DNA of 48,452 nucleotides from an uncultured Arthrobacter sp. (GTDB lineage Bacteria; Actinomycetota; Actinomycetes; Actinomycetales; Micrococcaceae): NCBI RefSeq assembly GCF_902805515.1, contig NZ_CADCTE010000073.1:1-48452 (forward strand). Direction: 5' to 3'. The notes under the pieces are model-generated. The model was not told the origin of the DNA. It ran no database searches and saw nothing but the letters and a program-made list of their open reading frames with translations. How positions within the stretch are numbered: position 1 is the first letter of the stretch; each line of letters begins with the position of its first letter. Both the position numbers and the translations under genes were made by a program. Of this stretch, positions 4,455 through 47,136 are shown piece after piece.

Positions 4455-4493
4455 GGTTTTCTCCTCCGGCTTTCGATCCTCGGATGTCCCGGG

Positions 4494-8691: not shown

Positions 8692-8762
8692 CCCGTAATC
8701 CTCGCAGGTCATCCGCGCTTGGCACCTATCCGAACACCCGAGGAGCAGAGGCCGCACTCCTC

Positions 8763-9752: not shown

Positions 9753-9762
9753 CGCTCGTCTC

Positions 9763-10683: not shown

Positions 10684-10735
10684 GCAGGGGAGCCTACCGG
10701 AAGCCATCCAACCCGACTGGCGGGAATCGGACGGG

Positions 10736-11113: not shown

Positions 11114-11143
11114 GAAACCTAGTCTCGTTGAAGTGTCCAAAAC

Positions 11144-11172
11144 ATACCAAGTACCTTAACGATACCAACTAC
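11144..11172. promoter_or_regulatory. Direct repeat in HxlR/RidA divergent promoter
   Basis: ATACCAAGTAC (11144-11154) and ATACCAACTAC (11162-11172) differ at one position and lie 18 bases apart start to start. They occupy the short gap between the two divergent genes, the place where an HxlR operator is expected. Confidence 0.45.
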
Positions 11173-11190
11173 GAGCTGAAGGAGATTTCC

Positions 11191-11601: not shown

Positions 11602-11661
11602 CCAGCCGATGTGAACCGCTCTCCGGCGTCGCCGTTGACACCAGTGCCAGGGCGGGTGCAG

Positions 11662-32451: not shown

Positions 32452-32676
32452 GGTTCTTCCTCCCTCACCGCCTGCACCATGAAGGCCGGGCACCAATCGG
32501 GGCAACTCTCGACCGCATCGCCGCTCCGAGAGCCAAGCATGCAGTACGCGACGGCCGCCCGTCGACCGCGGTCGCGAGGTGGCCGCGGACGCGTACGACG
32601 TCGTGTGGTCGTCGACGACGGACGTCGCCATGCGACTCCGACTTTATCCCCGGCCGCCCCTCGAACACTAGGCGTA

Positions 32677-33031: not shown

Positions 33032-33101
33032 AGAATGGTCCCTTTGATGATTGACGGAAATCCTGCGGGATCCCAGAGTTACCCCATGCAAGTCCGTTTC
33101 G

Positions 33102-34808
33102 ATGTTGATGGGGGCCGTGATTAGATTGAGAATTCGGCAAAGAATCGCCGCCATAGCCGTCGCGGCGTTGTTCATCGGCACGTTCTTTGTTCCTCCGGCC
33201 TCCGCGGCGCCTCCTCCGATCGTCCCCGGACGACTCGCCTACCCGGCTGGGGGGACGACCGCCGTGGGCGTCGGCATCAACGCCGCCAATCAGAACGCGC
33301 AACTCGCCGAGAGGATACCGGCCCAGATTAAACCGGGATGGAAGGCACAGCCGCCGCGCTGCCCGAGCGCTGCGACAAGTGAAGCCAGCTCCATCAGCGT
33401 CGCCGGCGCGCGGACCGTTGTGGTGGACAGGCAGTACCAGTGCACCTGGCTTTCGGCCTACAACACATCGACCGGGGCCCTCTTGTGGCGCCACAAGTTC
33501 CATTTCGGGCAGATGGCAAGAACCGAAGGGTCGCGGGTGTACTTCAGCCACGACGACCCGAACGGCGGCACCCTCCTGGATGCGTACGATATCGCGACCG
33601 GCAAACTGCTTTGGTCTTCGGGTCACTGGTACGGCTTCGATAAGATGTCGGTCGGATCCGGGGTCCTCGTGAATGACCACTTCGTGATCGATGCCAATAC
33701 GGGCGCCCTGAAGTTCAAACTGCCGGTCTCGCAGAATCATGGGAATACCATGGTCGCCGGCGGCAAGATCTTCAGCAACCAATCCGACTTCGTGGAAGCT
33801 TTCTCGCCGACCACCGGCCAGCGGCTCTGGTCATACAAGAAACCCGCGCGCACTGCCGGATCGGGAAACAGCACCCCGGCCCTCCATAACGGGCGTCTTT
33901 ACCTCTCCAGTCAGTACGGAGTGGGAACGCTGGTGCTTGACCCGGCCACCGGGAAATACATCCGCACCCTGCCGCGCAGCGAGATGGACATTGCCTTTGA
34001 CGGTCCGATCGGTATTTTCACCCGGAGGGACCATAACGAACCCGATGTGATCTCAGCGGTGCGGCTCGATACCGGAGAGGTCTACTGGTCCAGGAAGCTA
34101 GGCATGCTGGACGTTCATCCGTTCAGAATGTACTCCTCCGGGCCTGTTATCGAGAACGGTCTTGTCTGGATTCTTGCCGCTCCCCACGACGGCGTGGGCG
34201 GGCACCTGATCGCTCTGGACGAGGTGACCGGCGCCGTGCGCAGCACCACGATACAAACCTGTGCGGCACCCCTGGGCCACATTGCCATCGCCCAGCGCCG
34301 CATCTTCACCTCAAGTAACTGCGGTGTGCTCACCTATGTCTCGCGCGAGCTGCTGCCCGATCCTGGCTTCGAACTGGGGACGGGTGGATGGAAGGCATAC
34401 TCCACCGGAAGCCTGACCCCGGTAACCAGCCCGAAACACGAGGGCGCTAAGGCCCTGCGCGTGACGGCCACCTCCAGCAGTCCGGGGAAAACCGGCCTTG
34501 CCCACCACTCCGTCATCACGAACAGCAGACAGGGCAAGCCCTACAGCGCCTCATGCTGGGTGTACTCAACAGGAACGAACCTAAACCTCACCATCCGGTT
34601 GCTCGAACAACCCCAGGACTATTCCACCAGGATCCAGCTGGCCTCCAAGACAATAACCAGTCTCCCGGCCAAAAGCTGGACCAAAATCAGCATCACCGGG
34701 ACGGCGGCGAGATCAGGAGAACGAGTAATCCCTCAAATCTATTCGACGAATCAAACGACGCTTACAGGACATATCGTCTACGACAACTGCTCGGTAACCG
34801 GCGGGTAG
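33102..34808 (+). CDS. Secreted PQQ-like beta-propeller protein with C-terminal carbohydrate-binding-like domain
   Basis: A 568-residue exported protein. An Arg-rich n-region (RLRIRQR) and hydrophobic core (IAAIAVAALFIGTFF) end in VPPASA-AP, a signal-peptidase I site near residue 35. Residues about 60-410 carry propeller blades of the PQQ type: LSAYNTSTGALLWRHKF, LDAYDIATGKLLWSSGH, VEAFSPTTGQRLWSYKK, LVLDPATGKYIRTL, SAVRLDTGEVYWSRK and LIALDEVTGAVRS. After a Cys pair region, LLPDPGFELGTGGWKAYSTG begins a jelly-roll CBM-like domain to the end. It has no dehydrogenase motifs and probably binds or scaffolds at the cell surface. The start is uncertain: ATG 33102, ATG 33108 and GTG 33117 all fit. 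Confidence 0.78.
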   Translation: MLMGAVIRLRIRQRIAAIAVAALFIGTFFVPPASAAPPPIVPGRLAYPAGGTTAVGVGINAANQNAQLAERIPAQIKPGWKAQPPRCPSAATSEASSISVAGARTVVVDRQYQCTWLSAYNTSTGALLWRHKFHFGQMARTEGSRVYFSHDDPNGGTLLDAYDIATGKLLWSSGHWYGFDKMSVGSGVLVNDHFVIDANTGALKFKLPVSQNHGNTMVAGGKIFSNQSDFVEAFSPTTGQRLWSYKKPARTAGSGNSTPALHNGRLYLSSQYGVGTLVLDPATGKYIRTLPRSEMDIAFDGPIGIFTRRDHNEPDVISAVRLDTGEVYWSRKLGMLDVHPFRMYSSGPVIENGLVWILAAPHDGVGGHLIALDEVTGAVRSTTIQTCAAPLGHIAIAQRRIFTSSNCGVLTYVSRELLPDPGFELGTGGWKAYSTGSLTPVTSPKHEGAKALRVTATSSSPGKTGLAHHSVITNSRQGKPYSASCWVYSTGTNLNLTIRLLEQPQDYSTRIQLASKTITSLPAKSWTKISITGTAARSGERVIPQIYSTNQTTLTGHIVYDNCSVTGG

Positions 34809-35195: not shown

Positions 35196-36605
35196 ATGAC
35201 GATTGCGGATTTTTTAGGAAATTTCGAACTTTCGACCCGCCCTGTCCACCCCGAATCGCGTGCTGCCCTGGCGTCCCGATGGGCCGCACTGCCGGAGCAT
35301 GTGAAGACACAGAACCAGGTGCTGGGCCGTTGTGCTATCGGGTGTGAAGGTACCCACGGTGTTTTCCCCAAGTGCAATCTCACCTGCAGCCCGTGCTATC
35401 ACTCAGCAGAAGCTAATCAGGTGCGGGTGGACGGAGACCATACGGTCCGTGAAGTGCAGCGGCAGATGGAATATCTGCGTGCGGTGCGGGGCCCGAGCGC
35501 CCATGCCCAACTCATCGGGGGAGAGGTGAGCCTGCTTGCTCCGGAGGACCATGCTGCCGCGTTGACGGTGATGCGCGCCAATGGACGCGAGCCGATGTCG
35601 ATGACTCACGGGGATTTCGACTATGAGTACCTGTTGGCCGTCGTTCTTGGAGCTGACGGTGAGCCTCGGTTCGACCGGGTGTCCTTCGCGGCGCACTTCG
35701 ATTCACTGATGCGTGGCCGGCGCGGTGCAGTGCGGCCACGGAATGAATCCGAACTCGACCCATTCCGGTTGAAGTTCGCGCGGATGTTTCAGGACCTGCG
35801 TCGTGATCACGGTGTGAGCTCGTATCTCGCTCACAACATGACAGTGACACCGTCGAACTTCGGTGAAGTCGCAGAGGTAACTCGATCTGTGTTGTCCATG
35901 CCCTACGACATGCTGTCCTTCCAGCCGGCGGCATACATCGGAGACGGGCGTCGGTGGAAAGAAGACTTCACGGAGGTCGGGATCGACGACGTCTGGCAGA
36001 AGATCGAGGAGGGCGCCGGCCAGAAAGTGCCCTGGGAGGGGATCCAGGTCGGGGATCCGCGGTGCAACCGGTACAGCACAGGAGTCTTTGCAGGGGAGAA
36101 GTTCTCGGTCCTCGTTGATCCTCAGGACGCTGCCGACATCGCCGCCCGTGACACCCTCCTGGCCCATCATGGCGGGATCGTCTTCATCGGTCAGAACAGG
36201 TGGATTCTCGTGGCGAAGATTGTACGGGCCGTCCTTCGCCACCCCGCAGATGTCGGGGTTCTTCTCGGACACGCCCGACGCATGGTGCGCCGCGCCGGCG
36301 GGCTGCGCTCACTCTGGGACGCTTGGCGAACCAAGTCCTTGAGCATTAAATCGTTTGTCGTCCATAACTTTATGGATGCCGCTGTTGTGGCACCGGCATG
36401 GGACATGATGCAGCAGGGACAGATCAGTGATGAGCCGAAGATACGAGAAGCTCAGGAACGCCTCGGGGCGTGCATGTACACGATGAGCCACCCAGAGACA
36501 GGGCAGCTGGTACCGGCGTGCACGCAACACTCGGTATTGGATCCCGCCGCCAACATTGAACTGCGCCGGTTGCTGCCTTTGCGGGTGAAGAGCACCGTGG
36601 ACTGA
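35196..36605 (+). CDS. Radical SAM protein of unknown function
   Basis: A 469-residue radical S-adenosylmethionine protein. The cluster motif CxxxCxxC is Cys60, Cys64, Cys67 (FPKCNLTCSPCYHSAEAN), preceded by Cys46 and Cys50 in GRCAIGCEGTHG. The QLIGGEVSLL segment takes the GGE role in SAM binding, and MSMTHGDFDYEYL, YLAHNMTVTPSNF and MLSFQPAAYIGDGRRW follow. A later conserved part has GDPRCNR and ends MYTMSHPETGQLVPACTQHSV with two more cysteines. I recall similar proteins in mycobacteria, without a known function. ATG 35196 has GGAGGA 6 bases upstream. It converges with the AhpD-like gene and begins the 36-47 kb cluster. Confidence 0.85.
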   Translation: MTIADFLGNFELSTRPVHPESRAALASRWAALPEHVKTQNQVLGRCAIGCEGTHGVFPKCNLTCSPCYHSAEANQVRVDGDHTVREVQRQMEYLRAVRGPSAHAQLIGGEVSLLAPEDHAAALTVMRANGREPMSMTHGDFDYEYLLAVVLGADGEPRFDRVSFAAHFDSLMRGRRGAVRPRNESELDPFRLKFARMFQDLRRDHGVSSYLAHNMTVTPSNFGEVAEVTRSVLSMPYDMLSFQPAAYIGDGRRWKEDFTEVGIDDVWQKIEEGAGQKVPWEGIQVGDPRCNRYSTGVFAGEKFSVLVDPQDAADIAARDTLLAHHGGIVFIGQNRWILVAKIVRAVLRHPADVGVLLGHARRMVRRAGGLRSLWDAWRTKSLSIKSFVVHNFMDAAVVAPAWDMMQQGQISDEPKIREAQERLGACMYTMSHPETGQLVPACTQHSVLDPAANIELRRLLPLRVKSTVD

Positions 36606-36675
36606 TCTGTACCAGGGACCCGATCGGGGCCGGGGTGTGCCCGCGTGCTCGGACCGGAGGAATGAATGGGTAGGG

Positions 36676-36711
36676 GCGTGCCCGTACCGGGACGGGTCGG
36701 CACGGGCACGC
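36676..36711. terminator. Hairpin between convergent radical SAM and AhpD-like genes
   Basis: GCGTGCCCGT (36676-36685) pairs with ACGGGCACGC (36702-36711), followed on the + strand by GGCTCTTTA. It sits between two convergent stops, so it can serve as a bidirectional terminator. Confidence 0.7.
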
Positions 36712-36717
36712 GGCTCT

Positions 36718-37260
36718 TTAGAGTCCCGGGGCTGCCGGGATGTCGAGGTCGGTCTCGACGAGGTGGTTGAAGTAGTTGGTGAACAGGTTCAGGGCGATGT
36801 GCGCTGAGAGTTCCGTTAGTTCGCTGTCGGTCCACCCCGCATCGAGGCCGGCCTGCCAGGCGGCGTCCTTTACGGCGCCCTTATTGGCGGTGCTCTGGCG
36901 TGTCAGCTCGAGCAGGGCTGTGAGCTTGGGATCGAAGTCGATCGAGCCCTTGCGGATGGCAATGGTCTGGTCCTCGCTGAGCCCTGCGGCTTTGGCTCCC
37001 ATGGTGTGCGCGGACTGGCAGTAGCTGCACTCATCGACGTTTCCGACGACCAGGGCGATCGCTTCCCGGGTGCGGCTGTCGAAGGTGCCGTAATCACCGA
37101 TGACCTGCTGGAGAGCGACGTAGCTTTGCAGGACGGCAGGTGAGTGTGCCATCGCTCCGTGGATGTTCAGGACCTTCCCGAACTTCTGGGCAAGAGCGCC
37201 GAGTTCGGTCTGTACGGCCTCGGGCGCGTTGTCGGTGGTGTGCACAGTGATGCGCGACAT
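36718..37260 (-). CDS. Carboxymuconolactone decarboxylase / AhpD-family protein (YnjA-like)
   Basis: A 180-residue alkylhydroperoxidase-like protein. The redox motif is Cys78-x-x-Cys81-x-x-x-His85 (VDECSYCQSAHTMGAKAAGL), preceded by the acidic Glu77. Helices around it match the CMD fold (MAHSPAVLQSYVALQQV, DSRTREAIALVVGNVDE). Peroxidatic AhpD uses the cysteine pair to reduce peroxides; other members are decarboxylases. E. coli YnjA, of the same family, lies next to ynjBCD, and a YnjBCD-like transporter is encoded 1.7 kb away here. ATG has AAGGAG 6 bases upstream. Direct repeats with AGGTCA lie in its 174-base upstream region. Confidence 0.87.
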   Translation of the reverse strand: MSRITVHTTDNAPEAVQTELGALAQKFGKVLNIHGAMAHSPAVLQSYVALQQVIGDYGTFDSRTREAIALVVGNVDECSYCQSAHTMGAKAAGLSEDQTIAIRKGSIDFDPKLTALLELTRQSTANKGAVKDAAWQAGLDAGWTDSELTELSAHIALNLFTNYFNHLVETDLDIPAAPGL

Positions 37261-37345
37261 AAATACTCCTTCTTAGGGGGGGGTTCCGGGGAAACTGGTG
37301 TCAGCGGCCAGCCCTCAGGCCACCTCCGACGCCGGTCCTGAGACC

Positions 37346-37393
37346 AGTCATGAGACCGATATGAAGTCAGTCATCAGGTCAGTCACGAGGTCA
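37346..37393. promoter_or_regulatory. Direct repeats upstream of AhpD-like gene
   Basis: AGTCATGAG (37346-37354), AGTCATCAG (37369-37377) and AGTCACGAG (37381-37389) recur, with AGGTCA at 37376-37381 and 37388-37393. They lie in the gap between the AhpD-like start and the Crp/Fnr stop. AGGTCA also recurs in the ynjB/TVP38 divergent region. Confidence 0.4.
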
Positions 37394-37434
37394 TGGTCCG
37401 CCTGTGGGGTGCGCCGCGACGGGTAAGTGTGGGG

Positions 37435-38235
37435 TCAGAAAGTGCTGCGGGAAACCCGTCGAAGCCCGTCGGTGTCGTCGATTGTGATGCGTCCGCGTCC
37501 CTGGCGGATGAGTCCGCGCGCAGCGAAGTCGGACATGGTCTTACTGGTGGCTTCCCGTGTGGCACCGAGCAGTCCGGCGAGTTGCTCGTGGGTGAGCTTC
37601 ACGGACCTGGTGTGCGTGAACCTGCTCACGGGTGCGGCCTCGTCGAGTTTGAGCAGCGTGGAGGCGGTTCTGGCGCTCAAGGGGCGCAACGCCATGTCGG
37701 TCAGGCGCTCCTCCAGGCGTGCGACCTGTTCACCAAGGAGCCGGGAAATCTTCACGGCGATTTTCGGGTTCGACAGGAAGTGCTCCTCAACCTGTGCTGC
37801 GCTGAGCTGGCAGACGACCGAGTTCTCGATCGCTTCGGCGTAGTTGCCGTACATCCGCTGGCCGACGAGCAGCATCTCGCCGAAGACCGCGCCCGCCTCC
37901 AGGATCGCGATCGTGAGGGTCTTGCCGTCCTCGGCCACCCGGAAGATCCTGATCCTGCCTTCCTTAAGGATGAACAGGGCCGTAACGGGTTCACTCTGGC
38001 TGAAGACGAGCTCTCCACTGGAGAACAGTTTCGGAGGTGACACCCGGTCCAGAGCAGCCATGTCCTGTGTGGTGAGGTCGGCGAAGATCTCCACAGCGTT
38101 GAGGCAGCTGAAGTGCTCCCCGGTCTCGGCCAAGAGCTCTACCTCCCGTTCGTGGGGTGCCCAGCCTTTGGCAGCAGGGCCGGCGGCTGAGAGGACAGTT
38201 GTCGAGCAGGCATCGTTCATACGCTGAAGCTTCAT
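37435..38235 (-). CDS. Crp/Fnr-family transcriptional regulator
   Basis: A 266-residue regulator. Residues about 42-150 are a cyclic-nucleotide-binding-type beta-roll (IFADLTTQDMAALDRVSPPKLFSSGELVFSQSEPVTALFILKEGRIRIFRVAEDGKTLTIAILEAGAVFGEMLLVGQRMYG). Residues about 180-260 include the HTH, LTHEQLAGLLGATREATSKTMSDFAARGLIRQGRGRITIDD. Three cysteines occur in its N-terminal two thirds but not the four-Cys set of FNR, so a cluster sensor is not evident. The start ATG 38235 overlaps the membrane-protein stop (4 bases); ATG 38220 is an alternative. It may control the surrounding cluster. Confidence 0.88.
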   Translation of the reverse strand: MKLQRMNDACSTTVLSAAGPAAKGWAPHEREVELLAETGEHFSCLNAVEIFADLTTQDMAALDRVSPPKLFSSGELVFSQSEPVTALFILKEGRIRIFRVAEDGKTLTIAILEAGAVFGEMLLVGQRMYGNYAEAIENSVVCQLSAAQVEEHFLSNPKIAVKISRLLGEQVARLEERLTDMALRPLSARTASTLLKLDEAAPVSRFTHTRSVKLTHEQLAGLLGATREATSKTMSDFAARGLIRQGRGRITIDDTDGLRRVSRSTF

Positions 38236-38705
38236 CGACGGCGTAGGACCAGTGCTGCCACCAGTCCCAGAATAAGCCCGTAGATCATGTGTCCCATCAG
38301 CGATGCCAGGGAGGCCCCGTCGATCATGAAGACGGGCATTCCCATCATGGCCGGCATGATCAGCAGCGGACCGAGGACCCACCACAGCGCACCGTACACC
38401 AGCCCGATCAGTGCGCTCTTCACCAACGTCCCGGTCAGCAGACCGGCGACGAGAAGGGTCAGCGCCAGGCCGATGAGGACGGAAATCATCAGGTGCACCA
38501 GGATCCCGACGCCGGCCGACGTCGAGCCGACCATGGAGGCGACCATCGGCAGCATGCCCATCATGGCCATGAGGACGCCGAACACGATTCCGCCGCTGAG
38601 CCCGCCGATGACACCGGCGAGAACCCGCTTGCTCACCGGTGTCGCCGCAGATCCGGAAGCCGGGGTACCTGCAGCACTGACCGGTGCTTCGTGTGAAGCG
38701 CTCAT
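38232..38705 (-). CDS. Small hydrophobic membrane protein
   Basis: A 157-residue membrane protein with a 25-residue Ala/Ser/Pro-rich head and four or five helices (VLAGVIGGLSGGIVFGVLMAMMGML, ILVHLMISVLIGLALTLLVAGLL, ALIGLVYGALWWVLGPLLIM, LMGHMIYGLILGLVAALVL). Met is frequent (MMGMLPM, MPAMMGMPVFM), which is seen in membrane proteins near metal or redox systems but proves nothing. His73 and His142 lie in helices. Family not recognised. It overlaps the Crp/Fnr gene by 4 bases, so they are translated together. Ribosome-binding site GGAAGG. Confidence 0.75.
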   Translation of the reverse strand: MSASHEAPVSAAGTPASGSAATPVSKRVLAGVIGGLSGGIVFGVLMAMMGMLPMVASMVGSTSAGVGILVHLMISVLIGLALTLLVAGLLTGTLVKSALIGLVYGALWWVLGPLLIMPAMMGMPVFMIDGASLASLMGHMIYGLILGLVAALVLRRR

Positions 38706-38914
38706 GATGTGGCCTTCCTTGCCCTGGTGATCGTCGAAACCCCTGCCGGTCCGTTAATCACGCTGATCTGCTGGTACCGGTTCTGCTCGCGGTGCTGGTC
38801 ATGCATCTGACCGCGGTCCTGATCGTGGTTCTGATCGTTGGGGTTCCTCGACGGTAGGCCTGCGCCGCTCAGGGGTTCTGTAATCTGGGACACACTCAGG
38901 CACGGGCGTTCCAT
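38702..38914 (-). CDS. Possible small Gln/Asp/His-rich protein with tetrapeptide repeat
   Basis: A 70-residue frame whose stop overlaps the start of the membrane-protein gene by 4 bases. Residues 27-50 are six four-residue units (DQNH, DQDR, GQMH, DQHR, EQNR, YQQI) encoded by a 12-base degenerate repeat at 38765-38836. The start codon ATG 38914 has no clear ribosome-binding site. The 4-base overlap is suggestive, but the repeat could be non-coding. Confidence 0.35.
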   Translation of the reverse strand: MERPCLSVSQITEPLSGAGLPSRNPNDQNHDQDRGQMHDQHREQNRYQQISVINGPAGVSTITRARKATS

Positions 38915-38994
38915 CCGCGGAGCTGCGCCTCGCCTGACCGACTAAACCGGAGCGAGACAGGGACCGGGAAGCCAACCGGTGAGCTGCCGGCGTT
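38706..38994. other. Gap between ABC ATPase stop and membrane-protein start
   Basis: About 290 bases. It contains the 12-base degenerate repeat and the small frame described separately, and otherwise no gene. It must also hold the promoter for the membrane protein/Crp pair, unless these are expressed from the ABC transcript. Confidence 0.5.
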
Positions 38995-40182
38995 TTACTC
39001 TGTCGGGACCGCCCAGGCGCGCTGGTCCTGCAGGCTCAGAGTGATGACCTGACCAGATAGCAGTGGAGGGTGGCCGGGAACATCAACAGTGAGCGTGACC
39101 CCTGACGCCTCAGTGTTGCCGAGGTTTAGTGGACCTCCTGCAATCAATGACCTCTCGGAAACCTCCGGGGGAGGGTCGGCGGAGGAACCGTGGCGGGTAC
39201 CGGTGGGATTTTCGGAGCTGACGAGTACGCGCACCAAGGTCCTCGCGCCGAGCGAGGTCAGACCGGACACGCACCCCTTGATGGTCGGAGGTTCACCACC
39301 AGCAGATCCGCTGGTGAGTCTGCTGGTGGGTCCCCTGGCGGGTACGAGGGTGAGGGCTTCCTGGCGGATCATAAGATCCGACGGTCCGTCCGTGGCACCG
39401 GTTTGTACGGGCAGGGATCCCAGGACGGAGTGGTGGTGGCCGTCGCTGACCATGCCGGGGACGGTGTTGAGTCCTCCGAGGAGTTCGTTCACGGTGCGGG
39501 TCGCCGGCTGATAGTGGACCTGGTGCACGGTGCCGTGCTGCAGGATACGGCCGTCATCAAGGACCGCGATCGTGTCGGCGAGGATCGAAGCTTCCTGCCT
39601 GTCATGGGTCACCACCACGATTGTGGGGGCCAGCTGGGCGCGGATGTCGCCGATCAGGTCATACATGGTGTGGCGCAACTGCACATCAAGGGACGCGAAG
39701 GGCTCGTCCAGGAGCAGGATGCGGGGGTTGCGGGCCAGGGCGCGGGCGAGGGCGACGCGTTGCTCCTGTCCACCGGAGAGACTGCCGACGGGGCGACGGG
39801 CATAGTCGGCCAGGTGTACGAGCTCGAGGTAGTCCATTGCCTCCGCGCGGGCTTCTTTCCGGCGCGTTCCGGCCATGCGCGCTGCGAAGGCGACGTTGTC
39901 GATGACATTCAGATGCGGAAAAAGCAGAGCCTTCTGAAAGACCAGCGCCATGCCGCGCCGCTCGACGGGAACCATGGCCAGGTCCTCGCCATCGACGAGG
40001 ACGTGCCCACCCGAAGGTGCGTCGAGTCCGGCGATGATGCGCAGCAGCGTCGACTTGCCGCTGCCCGATGCTCCCAGCAACGCGACGCATTCAGAGGGCG
40101 GGACGGTCAGCGACACGGCGTGCAGAACCTCTGTGGACCCGAAGGATCGGGAGATGCTCCGGGCTTCAAGTTTCGAACTCAT
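38995..40182 (-). CDS. ABC transporter ATP-binding protein (YnjD-like) with C-terminal extension
   Basis: A 395-residue ATPase. Walker A is LLGASGSGKSTLL (about residues 35-47), the Q-loop FQKALLFPHL, the signature LSGGQEQRVALARAL, Walker B ILLLDEPFASLD and the switch VVVTHDRQEA. After residue 240 there is a long regulatory-type tail with IRQEALTLVPARGP and a final TLTVDVPGHPPLLSGQVITLSL, like the OB/TOBE-type end of CUT1 or ferric/spermidine ATPases. ATG 40182 overlaps the upstream permease stop by 4 bases. Best read as the energising subunit for the YnjBCD-like transporter upstream. Confidence 0.88.
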   Translation of the reverse strand: MSSKLEARSISRSFGSTEVLHAVSLTVPPSECVALLGASGSGKSTLLRIIAGLDAPSGGHVLVDGEDLAMVPVERRGMALVFQKALLFPHLNVIDNVAFAARMAGTRRKEARAEAMDYLELVHLADYARRPVGSLSGGQEQRVALARALARNPRILLLDEPFASLDVQLRHTMYDLIGDIRAQLAPTIVVVTHDRQEASILADTIAVLDDGRILQHGTVHQVHYQPATRTVNELLGGLNTVPGMVSDGHHHSVLGSLPVQTGATDGPSDLMIRQEALTLVPARGPTSRLTSGSAGGEPPTIKGCVSGLTSLGARTLVRVLVSSENPTGTRHGSSADPPPEVSERSLIAGGPLNLGNTEASGVTLTVDVPGHPPLLSGQVITLSLQDQRAWAVPTE

Positions 40183-41081
40183 AGTCCAGCCTTTCGGGTC
40201 AGCGCCCTCACCCATGTTCCGGCCGGTGTTCTGGCAGGTTTTCTGGCTCGCGTCCTGATGGTGGCCGGCAGCGCGACGGCAGCCAGGATGAGCACCGGCG
40301 GGATGATGACGGCGAGGGACAGGACGGCGACAAGTTGTTCATTGCCCGTTGATGCGGCCGCGGATCCCAGCAGCATCGGTAAGGTCGTCAGTTGCCCTCC
40401 ACCGACCAGCAACGTGGTGATGTAGTCGCCCCACCCGACGAGGAATGCGAGGAAGAACGCCCGGACCGTTGCTGCGGACAGCAACGGGGCCCGTACGTGG
40501 CGAAGGACCTGTCGCGGATCCGCGCCCAGGGTGAGGGCGACGTCCTCGAAACGCTGTTCGTAGGTGGCCAGGGCGCTGCGGAACATGAAGGTGGTGTACG
40601 GCAGTGCGACCACCACCAGGAGCAGGACGACACCGGCGAAGGCCGGGACGTGCAGGCGTAGCAGCGTGATGTTCGCGCCCATCACGAGGGCAAAAGGAGG
40701 CACCGCCAGAGGCAGCAGCAGAATGAGGTCGACGGCCCGGCCGCACCGCCCGGGCAGTGCCTGGGCGGCCAGTGCCCCCATCAGCCCCAGCGGGGTCGCG
40801 ATGACCGCGACAGTGCCGCCGAGCAGCAACGAGGACAAGGCAGCGGCCAGCGTTCCCGGGACTGCGAGCACCGCGAACGCGTCAAGGGAGTAGGTGCCCG
40901 GCAGGACGGCGGGCACCTGCCACAAGCCGGCCACGGACCACAGGACCAGCGGAACCAGCGGAACCAGGATCCAGAACACGAGCAGGACACCGAAAGCCGT
41001 GCGCAGCACCGGCCTGCCGCGCACACCGATACCTACCGGCATGCTTGGTGAGGGACGGCCCCCGGGTCGGAGCGCGGTCAT
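40179..41081 (-). CDS. ABC transporter permease 2 (YnjC C-terminal half-like)
   Basis: A 300-residue permease with six helices. The EAA-type loop that contacts the ATPase is EQRFEDVALTLGADPRQVLRHVRAPLL, after the helix PYTTFMFRSALATY. The first helix is VLLVFWILVPLVPLVLWSVAGLW. It overlaps the upstream permease by 4 bases and the ATPase by 4 bases, so translation is coupled. E. coli YnjC is one protein with two permease halves; here the halves are separate genes, which is usual for actinobacterial versions of such transporters. Confidence 0.86.
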   Translation of the reverse strand: MTALRPGGRPSPSMPVGIGVRGRPVLRTAFGVLLVFWILVPLVPLVLWSVAGLWQVPAVLPGTYSLDAFAVLAVPGTLAAALSSLLLGGTVAVIATPLGLMGALAAQALPGRCGRAVDLILLLPLAVPPFALVMGANITLLRLHVPAFAGVVLLLVVVALPYTTFMFRSALATYEQRFEDVALTLGADPRQVLRHVRAPLLSAATVRAFFLAFLVGWGDYITTLLVGGGQLTTLPMLLGSAAASTGNEQLVAVLSLAVIIPPVLILAAVALPATIRTRARKPARTPAGTWVRALTRKAGL

Positions 41082-42025
41082 CGCAGCCCCCTGGAGCGGC
41101 GCATCATGGCAAGCCCAGCAAGGATCGCCACGATACCGGCTCCAAGAGAGACCAGGGCTGTGGCCATCGCCTCGGGCCTGGCAGCCAGGTCTACGGAACC
41201 GAACAACCGCACAGCACGCACCGACACGGGTTCCGGTGATGTCGGCCCGAGCAGCCAGGCCGCCTCATAAGACCCGAACGTGTAGACGAACACGATGAGT
41301 GCGGACACAGCCAGCGCCGGACGCGAAAGTGGCAGCACGACGTGGATGATCCGCTGCCACGCCGTCGCCCCGAGCGTCGCCGCAGCATCACACATGCCCG
41401 AGACCGACCTCGACATGCTGCCGATGAGCACGAGTGCGACGAACGCTGATTCTTTCCACGCATACTCGAAGATGACCGCCCCGAACCAGGAACCGCCGAC
41501 AAGGGTAGGGAAGGCCGGCGGCAGACCAAGGGTCCGGTCGAGGAACCCGCTGTCGGACAGCAACAGGCCGATGGCACCGGCCCCGATAAGGTGCGGAATA
41601 GGAATGGTCGCCGCACTGAGGCCCGCAATGATCCTTCCCATCCGTGGTGTGGCCAGAACGTACAGGGCGATCACGAATCCCACGATCACCGACGCCACCG
41701 TGGACGCCACCGCGATGTACGCAGAGACCAGCACCGACCTGCCGAGGTCACCCGCGGACCCCGCCCAGGCGTCCGTGCTGAGAACAGGCTCACCAATGAA
41801 CGGCATCAATCCCAGACTCTGTGCCAACGCCCCCACGACGGAAACGCCGATGACCAGCGCGACAGGAACAACCGCGGGTACCGCCAGGACGACGCCCCGC
41901 AGGGTCACAGCTCCCGGGGCACCCCTGGCCGCGTACCGGTCGGGCGTCAGGTCCTGCCGGCTGGAGGGCGCAGGGCTGTGCGGGTCTGCCTGGTGTGGGC
42001 GACTGCCCGTGATCGGGATGTTCAT
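41078..42025 (-). CDS. ABC transporter permease 1 (YnjC N-terminal half-like)
   Basis: A 315-residue permease with six helices (first: VVLAVPAVVPVALVIGVSVVGALAQSLGL). The coupling loop is CDAAATLGATAWQRIIHVVLPLSRPALA. The segment PHLIGAGAIGLLLSDSGFLDR in a periplasmic loop is typical of YnjC/ThiP-type permeases. ATG 42025 overlaps the substrate-binding protein stop by 4 bases; an extension to 42052 adds 9 residues inside that gene. It forms the pore with the permease encoded next. Confidence 0.86.
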   Translation of the reverse strand: MNIPITGSRPHQADPHSPAPSSRQDLTPDRYAARGAPGAVTLRGVVLAVPAVVPVALVIGVSVVGALAQSLGLMPFIGEPVLSTDAWAGSAGDLGRSVLVSAYIAVASTVASVIVGFVIALYVLATPRMGRIIAGLSAATIPIPHLIGAGAIGLLLSDSGFLDRTLGLPPAFPTLVGGSWFGAVIFEYAWKESAFVALVLIGSMSRSVSGMCDAAATLGATAWQRIIHVVLPLSRPALAVSALIVFVYTFGSYEAAWLLGPTSPEPVSVRAVRLFGSVDLAARPEAMATALVSLGAGIVAILAGLAMMRRSRGLR

Positions 42026-43311
42026 CGTGAGGCCGCGATTTCCTGCCGCCACGCCTCGTCAAGGGCCGGCACCCACTCGGCGGAAAGTTCGCCGTGCGCC
42101 TTACGGGACAGCTCGTCATAGGTCGGGACGACAGGGGAGGCCGGAAGCTGGTCGAAAAGGGTCTCATCCTCGGGATCCAGGCGACCGAGGTCAAGGACCG
42201 GGAACTGACCCCACGTATCCGGGTCGGCTTTGGCCGCCTGCTGCTCGGGTGACAGGGCCAGATTCGCGACGACCATCGCACCGGCAGGGTCGGCGGCGTT
42301 CGCCGGTATCGCCAGGAAACTCGCGTTGCCCACGGTCCCCTCCTCAAGGGTGAGGACCTTCGTGGTGTCCGGCAGCGCCCCGGAAGCGACGAGGTCGGTC
42401 AGGGTGGCAGGCCCGTAGGTCATGGCGATATCAACCTCGCCATCGGCGAAGAGCGTGTTCAGTGCCTGCTCGTCGCGCGGATAGGTAGCCCCTTCACGCC
42501 ACAGGGACGGCGCCACGCCGGTCAGGGCGTCAAGGGCCGCCGGGGAGTGCTCGTCGAACGCCTCGTCGCTGAAGTCAAGTGGCACCGCCTCGGCTCCACC
42601 AGCGGCGGCGAGCATCACCTCGCGCAGGAACACGCTACCGGTGAAGTCCGGCGGGGCAGGGTAGGTGAAACGCCCAGGATGGTCCTTCGCCCACTGAAGG
42701 ATGCCCTCGAGGGTGGTCGGCGGGTCGTTCACCGTCGCGGAGTTGTAGAAGAACGTGAACTGGGCTTTGTGCCAGGGCGCTTCACAGCCGTCCACCGGTG
42801 TCCCGAAATCATTCAGGAGCAGGGGATCCTCCGGGTCGGTGAGGTCCATGTTCGGCAGCAACCCGGTCCAGTCACACCGCCACGCCTCAGCCTGCCGGCC
42901 GGTACTGAAGTTGGCGCCATTGACCCAGACAAGGTCCACGGACCCGTCCGAACGCCCTGCCTGGCGTTCGGACAGGACCCGGTTGACGGCATCGGCCGTA
43001 TCGGTGATCGGCACCCGGCGCAGCGTCACTCCCTCAGCCGCCGCAGCCGGAGCCAGAACGTCGTCGACGTACGCATTTCCCTGCTCATCCCCGCCGTACA
43101 TCCACAGGTCGACCGTTTGCCCGTCAGCCTCAGCACGAACGTCATCGAACGACGCGAAAGCCGACGGCGTCTCCGGTGACGGTGCGGCGCAGGAACTCAA
43201 TGCCAGCCCGGCCACAGCAGTCACAGCCGCAGTCATCGGGGCCGCGGACCTCCGCAGTCGGGCATGATGCCGAGTGCCCGGCAGGGAAGGGAATGTACGT
43301 GCGTGATTCAT
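42022..43311 (-). CDS. ABC transporter substrate-binding lipoprotein (YnjB-like)
   Basis: A 429-residue lipoprotein. The signal peptide ends in the lipobox LALSSC with Cys41 (chosen start ATG 43311, GAAGGA upstream). Segments TVDLWMYGGDEQGNAYVDDVLAPAAAA, VDLVWVNGANFSTGRQA, FTFFYNSATV and LWREGATYPRDEQALNTLFADGEVDIAMTYGPATL match the YnjB group of binding proteins within the thiamine/iron/polyamine-type superfamily. The ligand is unknown. It is the first gene of a four-gene overlapping transporter operon and is divergent from the TVP38 gene; 20-base tandem repeats lie in the divergent gap. Confidence 0.85.
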   Translation of the reverse strand: MNHARTFPSLPGTRHHARLRRSAAPMTAAVTAVAGLALSSCAAPSPETPSAFASFDDVRAEADGQTVDLWMYGGDEQGNAYVDDVLAPAAAAEGVTLRRVPITDTADAVNRVLSERQAGRSDGSVDLVWVNGANFSTGRQAEAWRCDWTGLLPNMDLTDPEDPLLLNDFGTPVDGCEAPWHKAQFTFFYNSATVNDPPTTLEGILQWAKDHPGRFTYPAPPDFTGSVFLREVMLAAAGGAEAVPLDFSDEAFDEHSPAALDALTGVAPSLWREGATYPRDEQALNTLFADGEVDIAMTYGPATLTDLVASGALPDTTKVLTLEEGTVGNASFLAIPANAADPAGAMVVANLALSPEQQAAKADPDTWGQFPVLDLGRLDPEDETLFDQLPASPVVPTYDELSRKAHGELSAEWVPALDEAWRQEIAASR

Positions 43312-43373
43312 AAGTCCTTCTGGGGTGGTAAGAGCTGGTTCCAGTATGCTTCGAAGCGGCACCGATCCTTGAC

Positions 43374-43440
43374 GGGCCATATCAGGCCGTATTAGGTCAT
43401 TTCGGGCCGTATTAGGTCATTTCGGGCGACATCAGGCAAT
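43374..43440. repeat. 20-base tandem repeat in the YnjB/TVP38 divergent promoter
   Basis: Two near-identical units of GGCCGTATTAGGTCATTTC pattern start at 43385 and 43405, with diverged partial units before (from 43374) and after (43425). The period is two helical turns. It lies between divergent starts (43311 and 43455), so it is a good candidate for a regulator array. Confidence 0.6.
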
Positions 43441-43454
43441 TACGGCGGGAGACC

Positions 43455-44132
43455 ATGCAGCGCGACGCCGGGAACCATGCGCCGTTGATGACCCCGACCC
43501 GACGGGTCCTGCTGCTGGGTGTCATCGTCATTGCGGCGACCGTGATCGTGCTGGTGGTTCCGCTTCCCGACGTCGACGAGCTGCGCGCCCTGGTCGACCG
43601 GGCCGGCTGGTGGGGGCCCTTCGGGTTCGTCCTCGGGTACGCGGCCATGACCCTGGCCCCTGTGCCCAAGAACGTCCTCTCCATCGGGGCAGGGGTCCTG
43701 TTCGGGTTCCTCCCGGGCCTGGGGCTGGTGTACGTGGCGGCGCTGCTCGGCGCGACCGCCGCGTTCTGGCTCGGGCGCCTGCTCGGCCGCGACGCGGTCG
43801 AGAAGTTCACCGGGACCCGGGTGGAGAAAGTCGACGCCGTCCTCAGCCAGCGCGGATTCATCGCCGTCGTCGGCGTACGCCTGATCCCGGTCCTGCCCTT
43901 CACCGCCATCAACTACTCGGCCGGCCTGACCGCGCTGGGATGGTGGCCCTACCTGCTGGGCACCATGGTCGGGATACTGCCCGGCACCGTAAGCTTCCTC
44001 GCCCTGGGTGCCTACGGCATGGACTTCGGCTGGCCCGCCACACTCGCAGCGGCCGCCCTCGGCGCCCTCACCCTCGCGGGCCTGATCTACACGCTGCGGG
44101 TCCGGCGCAGGAACCGGACCTCCGATGTTTGA
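43455..44132 (+). CDS. TVP38/TMEM64 (VTT domain) membrane protein, YdjX/YdjZ-like
   Basis: A 225-residue VTT-domain protein (formerly SNARE-associated; relatives of DedA). It has an N-terminal helix (VLLLGVIVIAATVIVLVV), then GPFGFVLGYAAMTLAPVPKNVLSIGAGVLFGFLPGLGLVYVAALLGATAAFWLGRLLGRD, the VTT core with the reentrant G-x-x-x-G pattern, and the conserved VVGVRLIPVLPFTAINYSAGLTALGWWPYLLGTMVGILPGTVSFLALGAYG. Such proteins act in lipid or metabolite movement across the membrane. E. coli YdjX and YdjZ, in front of ynjABCD, are of this family. ATG 43455 has GGGAGA upstream. It overlaps the next gene by 8 bases. Confidence 0.88.
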   Translation: MQRDAGNHAPLMTPTRRVLLLGVIVIAATVIVLVVPLPDVDELRALVDRAGWWGPFGFVLGYAAMTLAPVPKNVLSIGAGVLFGFLPGLGLVYVAALLGATAAFWLGRLLGRDAVEKFTGTRVEKVDAVLSQRGFIAVVGVRLIPVLPFTAINYSAGLTALGWWPYLLGTMVGILPGTVSFLALGAYGMDFGWPATLAAAALGALTLAGLIYTLRVRRRNRTSDV

Positions 44133-44787
44133 CAGCCGATTACGGCCCCTGCTGGCGCCGGCACTGAACCGGACCGCCGCCGTGCTGGATGTACCGTGGG
44201 TCAGTCCCAACCGGCTCACAGGGGCCAACCTCGTCCTCGGACTCGCCAGCGCAGGCCTGGCCGCAGCCCAACTGTGGGCACCGGCACTCATCGCATGGCT
44301 CCTGTGCCGGCTGGCAGACGGGATCGACGGCCCGCTGGCCCGACGCCGGGCAGCACAAGCAACACGGGCAGCGCAAGCAGTCCGTGTGGGACAGGCCCCA
44401 GCACCGGATGGCGGTCGAGGGGGATTCTGGGATATTGCTGCTGACTTCATCGTCTATGGGGCGACCGTCGTGGGAGTCGCCGTGGGAGCGACAGCTGCCT
44501 TCGGTGCCCCATGGTTACCCTTCCTCCTCGTCCTGTTCGCTTACTACATCAACGGCAGTGTTTTCCTCGCCTTTTCCTCCATCGCCGAGAAAACAGGGCG
44601 GACCATTGACGACGGCCGGTCCCTGTCCTTCCTCGGAGGTCTCGCCGAAGGAACTGAAACAGTCATCGTGCACAGCCTGTGGCTGCTCCTGCCCTTCCTG
44701 TCCTGGCAGATCGCGCTCGTCTGGGCTTTTCTCGTCTCGGTCAGCGCCACCCAAAGGATCATCACCGGCTACCGCAGGCTCGGCTGA
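44125..44787 (+). CDS. CDP-alcohol phosphatidyltransferase family protein (YnjF-like)
   Basis: A 220-residue membrane enzyme that joins a CDP-linked group to an alcohol. The catalytic set is Asp65, Asp68-Gly69, Ala72-Arg73, then Gly99, Asp103 and Asp107 (GGFWDIAAD). The usual spacing between the AR and G parts is 8-9 residues but is 25 here. The inserted stretch includes AAQATR then AAQAVR, from an imperfect 18-base tandem duplication (44350-44385). All acidic residues are kept, so the enzyme may remain active. E. coli YnjF, in the ynj cluster, is the same family. The start overlaps the TVP38 gene by 8 bases. The alcohol substrate is unknown. Confidence 0.86.
   Translation: MFDSRLRPLLAPALNRTAAVLDVPWVSPNRLTGANLVLGLASAGLAAAQLWAPALIAWLLCRLADGIDGPLARRRAAQATRAAQAVRVGQAPAPDGGRGGFWDIAADFIVYGATVVGVAVGATAAFGAPWLPFLLVLFAYYINGSVFLAFSSIAEKTGRTIDDGRSLSFLGGLAEGTETVIVHSLWLLLPFLSWQIALVWAFLVSVSATQRIITGYRRLG
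44350..44385 (+). repeat. Imperfect 18-base tandem duplication in CDP-alcohol transferase gene
   Basis: 44350-44367 and 44368-44385 match at 13 of 18 positions by hand and encode AAQATR and AAQAVR. It explains part of the longer spacing inside the catalytic motif. Confidence 0.6.
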
Positions 44788-44789
44788 CC

Positions 44790-44827
44790 GACAGGCGCTC
44801 ATCGTCAAGACAGGCGTTCACCGTCGA
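44790..44827. repeat. 19-base tandem repeat, two units
   Basis: GACAGGCGCTCATCGTCAA (44790-44808) is followed by GACAGGCGTTCACCGTCGA (44809-44827); 16 of 19 positions match. It sits in the 87-base gap between the convergent CDP-alcohol transferase and flavoprotein stops. Function unknown. Confidence 0.6.
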
Positions 44828-44874
44828 TCTCGCCAAGCACCTCCAGCCACCCCGAGCAGCGGCCTGAGCATGCC

Positions 44875-46356
44875 TCATGCTTCGCAGGAGGAGCTGCGAA
44901 CCGGTTCTTGGGCTGCGTGTCGGTCTTCTGGGTGGCGCCTGCGCACGGCCCGCCAACGGGTAAGACGGATCAGCAGCGACGTGAGGGCGCGGACGAGAGG
45001 CTTCTTAAGAGACGCACGGGCATCGGCAATGGCTGCGTTCCACAGGGCGTCGTTGTATGTCGGGTAGGGGTGGGTGACCCCCGCGAGGTCTCGGGTGGTG
45101 AGCTTCTGATGGACCGCGAGAGTCAACTCGCCCAGACTCTCTCCTGCCCTCGGTCCGACGATGGTGCCCCCGAGAATACGGCCACGCCTGTCGATGATCA
45201 GGCGGGTGAAGCCTGTGTCCTGGCTCTCGGTGATCGCCCGGTCCGTGTGGGCGTGCTCGATCGTTGAAACGCGGTGTCGCCGGCCATCGGGTCTGGTGAC
45301 GCCTACCGCCGCGACCTCGGGGGAGGTGTAGGTCACCCGGGGCACGACCGTGCTCACTGCCCTGCGCACCCCCAACACAGCGTTTGATGCCGCGGTGCTC
45401 GCATGAACCCCGGCAAGGTGGGTGAAGTCAGGGTTTTGGGTGACGTCTCCGGCTGCCCACACGAGCGGATTCGACGTCCGCATATTCGAACCGACCAGTA
45501 CCTGGCCCTTGTCATCGGTGTCCACGCCGATGAGCTCCAAGCCGAGACCTCTGCTGCGTGGTTGCCGGCCCGCTGCGACCAGGATCATGTCGGCGGGGAA
45601 GGTCCGTCCGTCACCGAGCCGCACGCGACTGACTGGCTCCTGCCCGCCCCCGGCCGAGGTGATGACCTCCTCCACCTCACTGTCCTCGATGACGTGCACG
45701 CCGTCCCGGGTAAGACTGGAGCGGATGATCGTTGCCGCATCGGGATCTTCCCTGGGCAGGATCCGGGACCGGGCGATCATCGTCACATTCGAGCCGAGCC
45801 GGGCGAAAGCCTGTCCCAGCTCACAGGCAATGGGCCCTCCACCGATGATCACCAGACGCGCGGGTAGCTCACGCAAGTCCCATACCGTCTCCGACGTCAC
45901 CACCGGTGCCTGATCCAATCCTGTAATAGGAGGAAGCGCCGGTTCGCTGCCGGTCGCGATGAGGGCCTGCCGGAAATACACCGTCTCCCCACCGATCTCG
46001 GCACGGCCCTGTCCCTTGAAGCGGGCCGCCCCCTGACGGACCGTTACGCCCGTCTCCTCGAGAGACGCCGGAGAGTCATTGGGCTCAATGGTCCTGATCG
46101 CTGCTGCGATCCGCTCTCTGATCTCAGCAAACATCACCGGACCGCTTGTTCCGTGCCGAGCATCGACTGCGCCCGCCGCCGCGGACAGAAGCGTCTTGGA
46201 CGGAACGCACCCTGTCCACAGACAGTCCCCGCCCGTGCGTGAGCGCTCCACCAGCTCGACGCGGGCTCCCAGACGCGCGGCCGTCTTTGCCCCTACAATC
46301 CCTGCCGTTCCACCGCCGATGACCAGAAGGTCAAACACATTTGTACTCGATCTCAT
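44875..46356 (-). CDS. Mercuric-reductase-like FAD-dependent disulfide oxidoreductase
   Basis: A 493-residue flavoprotein. FAD site LLVIGGGTAGIVGAKTAARLG (residues 10-30); redox disulfide GGDCLWTGCVPSKT with Cys45 and Cys50; NAD(P) site LVIIGGGPIACELGQAFARLG; second FAD site VWAAGDVTQNPDFTHLA. The dimerisation domain ends GVTHPYPTYNDALWNAA, where true lipoamide dehydrogenases and MerA have HAHPTxxE; the catalytic His/Glu pair is thus changed. There is no C-terminal Cys pair and no N-terminal MerR-like metal domain. Such proteins are often found fused to, or beside, TVP38-type membrane proteins, as here. The 123-base gap to the divergent methyltransferase holds both promoters. Confidence 0.86.
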   Translation of the reverse strand: MRSSTNVFDLLVIGGGTAGIVGAKTAARLGARVELVERSRTGGDCLWTGCVPSKTLLSAAAGAVDARHGTSGPVMFAEIRERIAAAIRTIEPNDSPASLEETGVTVRQGAARFKGQGRAEIGGETVYFRQALIATGSEPALPPITGLDQAPVVTSETVWDLRELPARLVIIGGGPIACELGQAFARLGSNVTMIARSRILPREDPDAATIIRSSLTRDGVHVIEDSEVEEVITSAGGGQEPVSRVRLGDGRTFPADMILVAAGRQPRSRGLGLELIGVDTDDKGQVLVGSNMRTSNPLVWAAGDVTQNPDFTHLAGVHASTAASNAVLGVRRAVSTVVPRVTYTSPEVAAVGVTRPDGRRHRVSTIEHAHTDRAITESQDTGFTRLIIDRRGRILGGTIVGPRAGESLGELTLAVHQKLTTRDLAGVTHPYPTYNDALWNAAIADARASLKKPLVRALTSLLIRLTRWRAVRRRHPEDRHAAQEPVRSSSCEA

Positions 46357-46479
46357 TCGTGCCTCATCTGTTCGCTCAATTCATCGCTGGTCACCGGCAG
46401 TCCCTTCGGAGGAGGACCGATTAGGGTGTGAGCCTAACTGGTCGTCCCAGCGCCAGACCGTGGCGCCTACATTCGTGGA

Positions 46480-47136
46480 GTGATTCTGATCGCCGAGAAA
46501 TACAGCAGCTTCGCACCCCTCTACGACCTCATGTCAGCAGAAATTCCCATCTACCGCGCTGGCCGGAAGCTCGGCGTCCAATCCCTTGATCTTCGAGCCG
46601 GCGCGCAAGTGATCGACGTCGGGTGCGGTACAGGACTGAACTTCCGGCACCTCAAAGAACGTATCGGATTGGCCGGGACCATCGTTGGGATCGACCGGAG
46701 CGCTGAGATGCTCGCGCAAGCCCGACGAAAAGCCACCCGACATGGGTGGACCAACATCATCCTCATCCAGGCCGATGCCACCACGACACCCTCCGAATCC
46801 ATTATCGAATCAATTACGTCCCAAGGGGGCCGGCCACTCTCCGACGCGGCCCTGGCAACCTACGCCCTGTCCCTCATGAACCCTTGGGAGGCGGGATGGA
46901 ACATGATGCGCAAGCTCACCGCACCGGGCGGGCGCCTTTGCATCGTCGACATGCAGGAACCCACCAGCCGCATCCCGGGAACGCGCGCCCTGGCACGCCT
47001 GGCCTGCAGCCTTGGCGGAGCCGACATCACCGCCCACCCCTGGAAGGCAGTCGAAGCAGACTGCGTCGACGTGACGGACGGAACTGCACGCGCAGGACAC
47101 CTGCAAATCCGGACCGGGCGTCAAACCGCGACCTGA
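46480..47136 (+). CDS. Class I SAM-dependent methyltransferase
   Basis: A 218-residue methyltransferase. Motif I is QVIDVGCGTGLNFRHLKERIG (residues about 43-63) and motif II IVGIDRSAEMLAQARRKA; LSDAALATYALSLMNPWEAGWNMMRKLTAPGGRLCIVD forms the later strands with the usual PGG turn. The GTGLNF loop recalls lipid or quinone methyltransferases, but the substrate cannot be read. GTG 46480 has GGAG only 4 bases upstream, so the exact start is uncertain. It is divergent from the flavoprotein gene and closes the ynj-like cluster. Confidence 0.83.
   Translation: MILIAEKYSSFAPLYDLMSAEIPIYRAGRKLGVQSLDLRAGAQVIDVGCGTGLNFRHLKERIGLAGTIVGIDRSAEMLAQARRKATRHGWTNIILIQADATTTPSESIIESITSQGGRPLSDAALATYALSLMNPWEAGWNMMRKLTAPGGRLCIVDMQEPTSRIPGTRALARLACSLGGADITAHPWKAVEADCVDVTDGTARAGHLQIRTGRQTAT

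Follow-up and report, generated by a model that had tools for sequence, protein, structure and literature searches.

An enlarged ynj-like gene cluster in an uncultured Arthrobacter and its possible role in membrane lipid modification

Does the ynj module make a lipid? In Escherichia coli K-12 the importer YnjBCD is termed an uncharacterised transporter (PMC9207381), and the passages of published accounts that deal with it give no settled function (PMC9207381, PMC9397018, PMC9184624). An actinobacterial form of the module adds enzymes with readable chemistry, which makes this open question directly testable. We analysed this form in a stretch of 48,452 bases from an uncultured Arthrobacter sp. 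(NZ_CADCTE010000073.1, hereafter the window), a single contig of a 3.74-Mb draft genome (G000) whose assembly is about 91% complete. The cluster encodes a radical S-adenosylmethionine (SAM) protein, an ATP-binding cassette (ABC) importer with a YnjB-family binding protein, a VTT protein, a cytidine diphosphate (CDP)-alcohol phosphatidyltransferase, a MerA-like flavoprotein and a methyltransferase. We found that it is real and recurrent, that its AhpD, Crp/Fnr and small membrane protein genes are optional, and that it is a variant of a known but unsolved system.

The gene set and its recurrence

Named genomes were scanned with an alignment of YnjB. This gave 597 stretches, 588 of which were confirmed, and the best 80 of the 588 were used as loci. 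The 56 loci of at least 15 kb were counted, 29 from actinobacteria and 27 from other bacteria, and the 24 shorter ones were excluded. A MerA-like gene was present in all 29 actinobacterial loci, a CDP-alcohol transferase in 28, a VTT gene in 25, a methyltransferase in 20 and the radical SAM protein in 18; the counting profiles were derived from the same loci, so that the counts favour close relatives. The controls were 20 windows of 20 kb, two per genome at set positions in ten genomes of the same family; one of these genomes (G053) bears the cluster elsewhere. Here we found two MerA-like and two methyltransferase genes and none for the CDP-alcohol transferase, the VTT protein, the radical SAM protein, Crp/Fnr, the membrane protein or AhpD. 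Each of the first five families was enriched in the actinobacterial loci (Fisher, p 4e-5 or less), and Crp/Fnr (6 loci, p 0.03), the small membrane protein (5 loci, 0.06) and AhpD (3 loci, 0.20) did not stand out against the same controls. The counts in the 56 loci show that the families co-occur far beyond this genome. In actinobacteria the genes often follow the order methyltransferase, flavoprotein, CDP-alcohol transferase, VTT, YnjB, permeases, ATPase and radical SAM, as in Cryobacterium, Microbacterium and Rhodococcus.

In the window, a sequence-only reading had named twelve consecutive genes, and all of them were confirmed as open frames from 35196 to 47136 by an open reading frame check and profile searches. 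They adjoin one another, yet are split over five strand blocks (radical SAM; AhpD to YnjB; VTT and CDP-alcohol transferase; flavoprotein; methyltransferase) and do not form one operon. The features are as follows.

35196..36605, + strand: radical SAM protein of 469 residues, with a predicted fold like that of the archaeal tetraether lipid synthase (Tes); CX3CX2C at C60/C64/C67, invariant C50, C290, C426 and C442
36718..37260, - strand: AhpD/CMD-family protein with CxxC (PF02627); accessory, 3 of 29 actinobacterial loci
37435..38385, - strand: Crp/Fnr-family regulator; accessory, 6 of 29 actinobacterial loci
38232..38705, - strand: membrane protein of 157 residues adjoining the Crp/Fnr gene; accessory, 5 of 29 actinobacterial loci
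38995..40215, - strand: ABC transporter ATPase in the YnjD position, by profile match
40179..41081, - strand: ABC permease 2, matching the C-terminal part of the fused E. coli YnjC
41078..42052, - strand: ABC permease 1, by profile match
42022..43380, - strand: YnjB-family solute-binding protein (NF008633/PRK11622); lipoprotein-type N-terminus by eye
43375..43434, no strand: 10-bp-phased sequence repeat in the divergent promoter of ynjB and the VTT gene
43455..44132, + strand: VTT/DedA protein of the YdjX/YdjZ type (PF09335); 8-bp overlap with the next gene
44125..44787, + strand: CDP-alcohol phosphatidyltransferase of the YnjF family; complete catalytic motif
44875..46356, - strand: MerA-like FAD/NAD(P) flavoprotein; CLWTGC redox pair, Tyr at the lipoamide dehydrogenase His position
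46480..47136, + strand: class I SAM methyltransferase of the UbiE type, by profile match
Enzymes taken together: flavoprotein, transferase, METHYLTRANSFERASE

The association was also followed in whole genomes, in sets that overlap with the loci (L078 is G057, L064 is G050 and L085 is G072) and are not independent of them. Among 61 genomes at the family level, strong YnjB matches occurred in six and a fragment in a seventh (G056), and the six genomes with strong radical SAM matches all fell inside these seven (Fisher 1.3e-7). The seventh family-level radical SAM match was a remnant in G048, a genome without YnjB. In the neighbourhoods of the matches lay some or most of the same genes, about 42-86% identical and in rearranged order. 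In each of two genomes, G053 (L033, L034, L035) and G035 (L036-L038), the cluster occurs as two or three incomplete copies; stop codons or split genes in some of them look like the outcome of frequent gain and loss of the island. Across the phylum, 12 of 396 genomes had the radical SAM protein (two of them as fragments), 36 had YnjB (at 1e-40) and 7 had both (Fisher 1.6e-5; 1.1e-4 without the window's own genome).

One rival explanation is a simple importer of a nutrient such as thiamine or a polyamine, lying beside unrelated genes that move together in islands. The importer is complete, with an ATPase, two permeases and the binding protein, which scored 448.3 bits against NF008633/PRK11622 (COG4134; cut-off 203) and whose closest named YnjB among the matches listed is that of Arthrobacter sp. 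B1805 (89%). YnjB gave weak sequence matches to polyamine-binding proteins (E about 0.01), and a fold search did not separate the ligand classes. Tables in the literature place YnjB under polyamine transport (PMC9397018) and YnjC under thiamine/sulfate transport (PMC9184624). The decayed extra copies suggest mobile islands, and many YnjB importers elsewhere stand without the other genes. Against this, the same five partner families recur over many genera in conserved order. Partners are likewise found near the radical SAM protein where YnjB is absent: in the phylum, neighbourhoods were covered for 9 of the 11 other radical SAM genomes (G242 and G264, with short fragment matches only, were left out), and a match to the MerA profile was present in 6, four of them with the motif in a full-length frame, and YnjB in 2. 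We conclude that a mere nutrient importer is very unlikely.

When 1256 unassigned frames were clustered, the most widespread family reached no more than 10 of 108 loci, so that this route yielded no further core family. For YnjB loci without the module, a Pfam search of ten neighbour families showed no common theme (malate synthase, amidohydrolase, AsnC, HTH, fatty acid desaturase, phosphonate-binding protein, transglycosylase, GGDEF, APH/choline-kinase-like and one unmatched). Five Sneathiella-type loci (L081, L087, L099, L100, L104) combine the YnjB importer with an AsnC regulator, a fatty-acid desaturase and phosphonate-binding genes, with an amidohydrolase and malate synthase in four of the five. 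They are a different use of the same importer family.

The enzymes and the accessory genes

The radical SAM protein scored 22 bits against PF04055, below the Pfam cut-off of 29.5, yet the CX3CX2C motif is present. Its cysteines C60, C64 and C67 were found in 20 of 20 aligned homologues, and C50, C290, C426 and C442 were likewise invariant. The protein matched no named family; its predicted fold is Tes-like, at 16% identity to Tes. It had been guessed from the sequence that the system imports a small metal-bound or electrophilic compound and modifies a lipid or cofactor with it, and the membrane-lipid part of this guess is strengthened by the predicted fold.

The CDP-alcohol transferase had no Pfam match at 1e-3. 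All 19 aligned homologues, E. coli YnjF among them, share its residues D65, D68, G69, A72, R73, G99, D103 and D107, which complete what we take to be the motif of CDP-alcohol phosphatidyltransferases, D-x2-DG-x2-AR ... G-x3-D-x3-D. The VTT protein, by family resemblance (COG0398), is a putative phospholipid flippase. The methyltransferase is UbiE-like, with 39-55% identity among ten, and none of the best 25 of 51 families listed reached its NCBIfam cut-off.

The flavoprotein is a Pyr_redox/MerA-like protein, and mercuric reductase is its best match among solved structures. Across the module, its counterparts retain the CxxxxC pair and have a tyrosine (xYPT/S in nearly all) where lipoamide dehydrogenase has a histidine, presumably the catalytic one. 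A full-length frame was present in 28 of the 29 actinobacterial loci (all but L054), each with the tyrosine. Since the tyrosine stands at this position, the flavoprotein is unlikely to be an ordinary disulfide reductase.

The likeness to mercuric reductase, which itself has a tyrosine in place of the catalytic histidine, brings up the chief rival, a metalloid or selenium/arsenic pathway. Here a metalloid or organometalloid would be imported, reduced by the MerA-like enzyme, attached to carbon by the methyl and radical SAM steps and put on a lipid by the CDP-alcohol transferase; most steps are common to this pathway and a lipid pathway, and the imported compound differs. Arsenosugar phospholipids are a precedent for a metalloid carried on a lipid. 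Distant relatives of the radical SAM protein lie beside arsS in Burkholderia glumae (27%) and beside TIGR04282 with VTT and MerA-like genes in Roseomonas (28.5%). Another relative, found via the Roseomonas protein, scored 237 bits against the window-protein profile and belongs to the alphaproteobacterial locus L192 (G664), where a YnjB importer, TIGR04282 and TIGR04283 glycosyltransferases, DUF547, two radical SAM genes and an APH-type kinase lie within 11 kb (614-11634).

Several results speak against the metalloid pathway. ArsS (TIGR04167) had no match at 1e-20 in this genome as assembled to about 91%, and in the phylum it occurred in 8 of 396 genomes, none of which was among the 12 with the radical SAM protein or the 36 with YnjB. 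The methyltransferase scored 40.7 against an arsenite methyltransferase cut-off of 263. With 354.7 bits the flavoprotein stayed below the TIGR02053 cut-off of 454.45, and its end has one cysteine and no vicinal pair. "Arsenosugar" as applied to TIGR04282 and TIGR04283 is a database label. A metalloid route is unlikely on this evidence. Membership in an arsenosugar cluster was rejected, as no ArsS match was found in the assembly at 1e-20, and the rival was retained for its chemistry only.

The accessory genes bear on another explanation, an oxidant-defence or thiol-redox island. On this view the membrane is protected by AhpD, the flavoprotein and a redox-sensing Crp/Fnr regulator, and the substrate of YnjBCD is an antioxidant. 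The cluster does have an AhpD protein with CxxC and a Crp/Fnr gene, the methionine sulfoxide reductase genes msrA and msrB lie near the module in Metabacillus, and DoxX-type genes lie nearby in an E. coli plasmid and in Roseomonas. COG0398 VTT proteins have been tied to aerobic metabolism in the sections of a survey that treat them (PMC10127716). On the other side stand the low counts of AhpD and Crp/Fnr given above, and this explanation has no place for the radical SAM, methyl or CDP-alcohol steps. In addition, a table of FNR-regulated operons of anaerobic growth includes ydjXYZ-ynjABCD and ynjE, the latter called directly activated (PMC3688515). We consider an oxidant-defence island quite unlikely. 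A list of the BaeR envelope-stress regulon also includes ynjABCD (PMC2731931).

The frame of the Crp/Fnr gene overlaps the next gene, so its true start is probably further downstream. The adjoining 157-residue membrane protein had no Pfam match at 1e-3 and no NCBIfam match at 0.01; by eye it resembles DUF6789, which we take to be a membrane family, and a similar pair of Crp/Fnr and small membrane protein is present in Deinococcus taeanensis. Another protein of the window (31942-32631) matches DUF6789 (PF20587) in its C-terminal part. Directly upstream of the radical SAM gene, 33051-34808 encodes a secreted-looking pyrroloquinoline quinone (PQQ) beta-propeller protein with a CBM_4_9 domain.

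The promoter repeat at 43375-43434 has exact 10-bp phasing. Two perfect copies of its 21-bp unit are present, and the window has no others even when up to 3 mismatches are allowed. Among the fetched loci, the 12-bp core turned up only in two that are this same stretch. At the corresponding promoter, the Rhodococcus, Lolliginicoccus and Nocardioides loci have, by eye, a GGGAA...TTCCC pair instead. A simple inverted-repeat scan of the intergenic stretches showed no obvious shared site.

A possible membrane lipid pathway

An importer, a phospholipid-synthesis enzyme, a putative flippase, a Tes-shaped radical enzyme, a methyltransferase and a flavoprotein travel together, and a modified membrane lipid is the simplest joint product of such a set. 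We propose that the cluster may make and modify an unusual membrane phospholipid. Because each step beyond the reaction class is our inference, the proposal is a tentative one, which we hold possible at somewhat short of even chances.

In such a pathway, YnjB, the two permeases and the ATPase would import a small hydroxylated or phosphorylated precursor. Judged by its intact motif, the YnjF-type enzyme would join an alcohol to CDP-diacylglycerol with release of cytidine monophosphate. If the predicted fold is a guide, the Tes-like enzyme might form a radical on the lipid alkyl chain and couple it to carbon or sulfur, and its spare cysteines could hold an auxiliary iron-sulfur cluster. The methyltransferase may methylate the product or an intermediate. 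From their family roles, the MerA-like flavoprotein would supply or remove electrons and the VTT protein would move the lipid across the membrane. The E. coli ydjXYZ-ynjABCDEF form would then lack the flavoprotein, methyl and radical SAM steps and have an iron-sulfur protein in their place.

A number of observations weigh against this lipid pathway. Foldseek's own ranking put peptide-modifying radical SAM enzymes first, with no Tes among the first 50, and the Tes link came from a second alignment. A larger alignment, A3, brought no solved structure past 0.01. The Tes family model NF045702 scored 20.2 bits against a cut-off of 450. It matched 14 of 14 control genomes (above the cut-off in 3) and in this genome found another protein with 56 bits; as the model is non-specific and picks a different protein here, the NCBIfam hints at TrsS, Tes and viperin were dropped. 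Tes has an N-terminal rubredoxin site and N-terminal cluster cysteines (C73/C77/C80 in the description drawn on here, PMC9433317). The window protein is without both; ahead of its radical SAM motif it has only C46, a cysteine in 7 of 20 homologues, and C50.

The gene associations also have gaps. Among the 27 non-actinobacterial YnjB loci, the CDP-alcohol transferase and VTT genes were found in only 5 each, the methyltransferase in 1, and the radical SAM protein, Crp/Fnr, the membrane protein and AhpD in none. The MerA-like count fell from 5 to 3 in an active-site motif check, as the aligned proteins of L128 and L130 are without the CxxxxC pair. The importer of Deinococcus aetherius has no VTT, transferase or radical SAM gene annotated within 9 kb, Aliiroseovarius, like Roseivivax, has the transferase and importer only, and the msrA and msrB genes of Metabacillus fit oxidant defence. 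In the phylum sample, 5 of the 12 radical SAM genomes were without YnjB, and in only 3 of the 7 genomes with both (G000, G072, G295) were the two on one contig, the other four having them on separate contigs of draft assemblies. A mutation in E. coli ynjC is described as conferring fitness under colistin, and this could be drug uptake itself, as the same text cites lower cationic-dye uptake in a ynjC deletion (PMC9184624). Klebsiella ynjC is reported to be under positive selection (PMC8767333).

To our knowledge, no ligand, product or phenotype of the radical SAM form has been described, and searches of an open-access library of papers did not turn the form up. A bolder version of the lipid pathway, which we think doubtful, is a bacterial counterpart of tetraether-lipid chemistry in aerobic actinobacteria: YnjBCD would import a head-group precursor, the YnjF-type enzyme would build the phospholipid and the Tes-like enzyme would couple alkyl chains or insert sulfur, the E. 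coli operon being the same pathway minus the coupling. If true, aerobic bacteria would have a family of Tes-like enzymes, a point of interest for the question of which organisms produce the unusual membrane lipids that serve as climate markers (PMC13274423).

Comparison with known systems

The closest known system is that of E. coli K-12, in the order ydjX, ydjY, ydjZ, ynjA, ynjB, ynjC, ynjD, ynjE, followed by ynjF on the opposite strand. YnjB of the window shares 138 of 373 residues with its E. coli namesake (3e-67) and the CDP-alcohol transferase is 35% identical to YnjF (2e-24). The VTT protein matched YdjX (4e-26) and YdjZ (9e-20), with only 0.001 for YabI and 0.54 for YqjA, which are other DedA proteins of E. 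coli. These matches bear out the claim of the sequence-only reading that the module has been kept in a distant phylum. As for AhpD, an AhpD/CMD gene is present, its match to YnjA is marginal (26% over 120 positions, 7e-6) and the gene is accessory in the actinobacterial loci.

The E. coli-type layout is probably old, since a Bacillota locus (L121) has nearly the same one, with rhodanese, VTT, iron-sulfur protein, VTT, YnjB, two permeases, ATPase and CDP-alcohol transferase in a row. VTT and MerA-like genes, the YnjB importer and the CDP-alcohol transferase occur together in Metabacillus, Planococcus, a Chloroflexota genome and an E. coli plasmid from veal. In Deinococcus taeanensis the importer lies with a CMD gene, a MerA-like gene, Crp/Fnr and the similar small membrane protein, and no VTT or transferase gene is annotated in the stretch. 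As MerA-like genes lie near YnjB in several phyla, the flavoprotein belongs to a widespread form of the module. The supposition that it was gained here is not supported, and in this respect the module is broader than first thought. The veal plasmid (L044; CP063738, IncC) carries its island with a VTT gene, two flavoproteins, the YnjB importer, the CDP-alcohol transferase and a CMD gene, and an IS150-type element lies beside the VTT gene. Similar YnjB matches lie on Salmonella, Klebsiella and Citrobacter plasmids, several of them bovine- or milk-derived.

Other systems share parts of the set. In mercuric reductase, which has C-terminal vicinal cysteines, the tyrosine is common to both proteins; the cysteine pair and the family cut-off set it apart from the window flavoprotein. 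Arsenosugar-type clusters (ArsS, TIGR04282, TIGR04283, DUF547) contain a distant radical SAM relative, one of them with VTT and MerA-like genes and another with the YnjB importer, but none of TIGR04282, TIGR04283 and DUF547 was recognised in the cluster of the window. The passages on COG0398 (TVP38/TMEM64-type) DedA proteins describe fusions with Pyr_redox flavoproteins (PMC10127716); the window has the same two together, as separate genes and with an importer, a CDP-alcohol transferase and a radical SAM protein. Tes, also named GDGT-MAS (MJ0619), has the radical SAM CX3CX2C motif in common with the window protein. Tes also carries an auxiliary iron-sulfur cluster in its C-terminal part, close to the lipid pocket; in the window protein the invariant C50, C290, C426 and C442 would be candidate ligands for such a cluster.

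The E. coli ydjXYZ-ynjABCDEF genes and the window thus have in common a neighbouring YnjB-type binding protein, permease and ATPase genes, a YdjX/YdjZ-type VTT protein, a YnjF-type transferase and an AhpD-like gene. In E. coli, the ferredoxin-type iron-sulfur protein YdjY lies between two VTT genes and the locus includes the rhodanese YnjE, whereas the window set has no YdjY-like protein, no second VTT gene and no rhodanese among its twelve genes. The permease is a fused YnjC in E. coli and two genes in the window. To the E. coli set the window adds the radical SAM protein with its predicted Tes-like fold, the MerA-like flavoprotein, the methyltransferase, Crp/Fnr and the small membrane protein.

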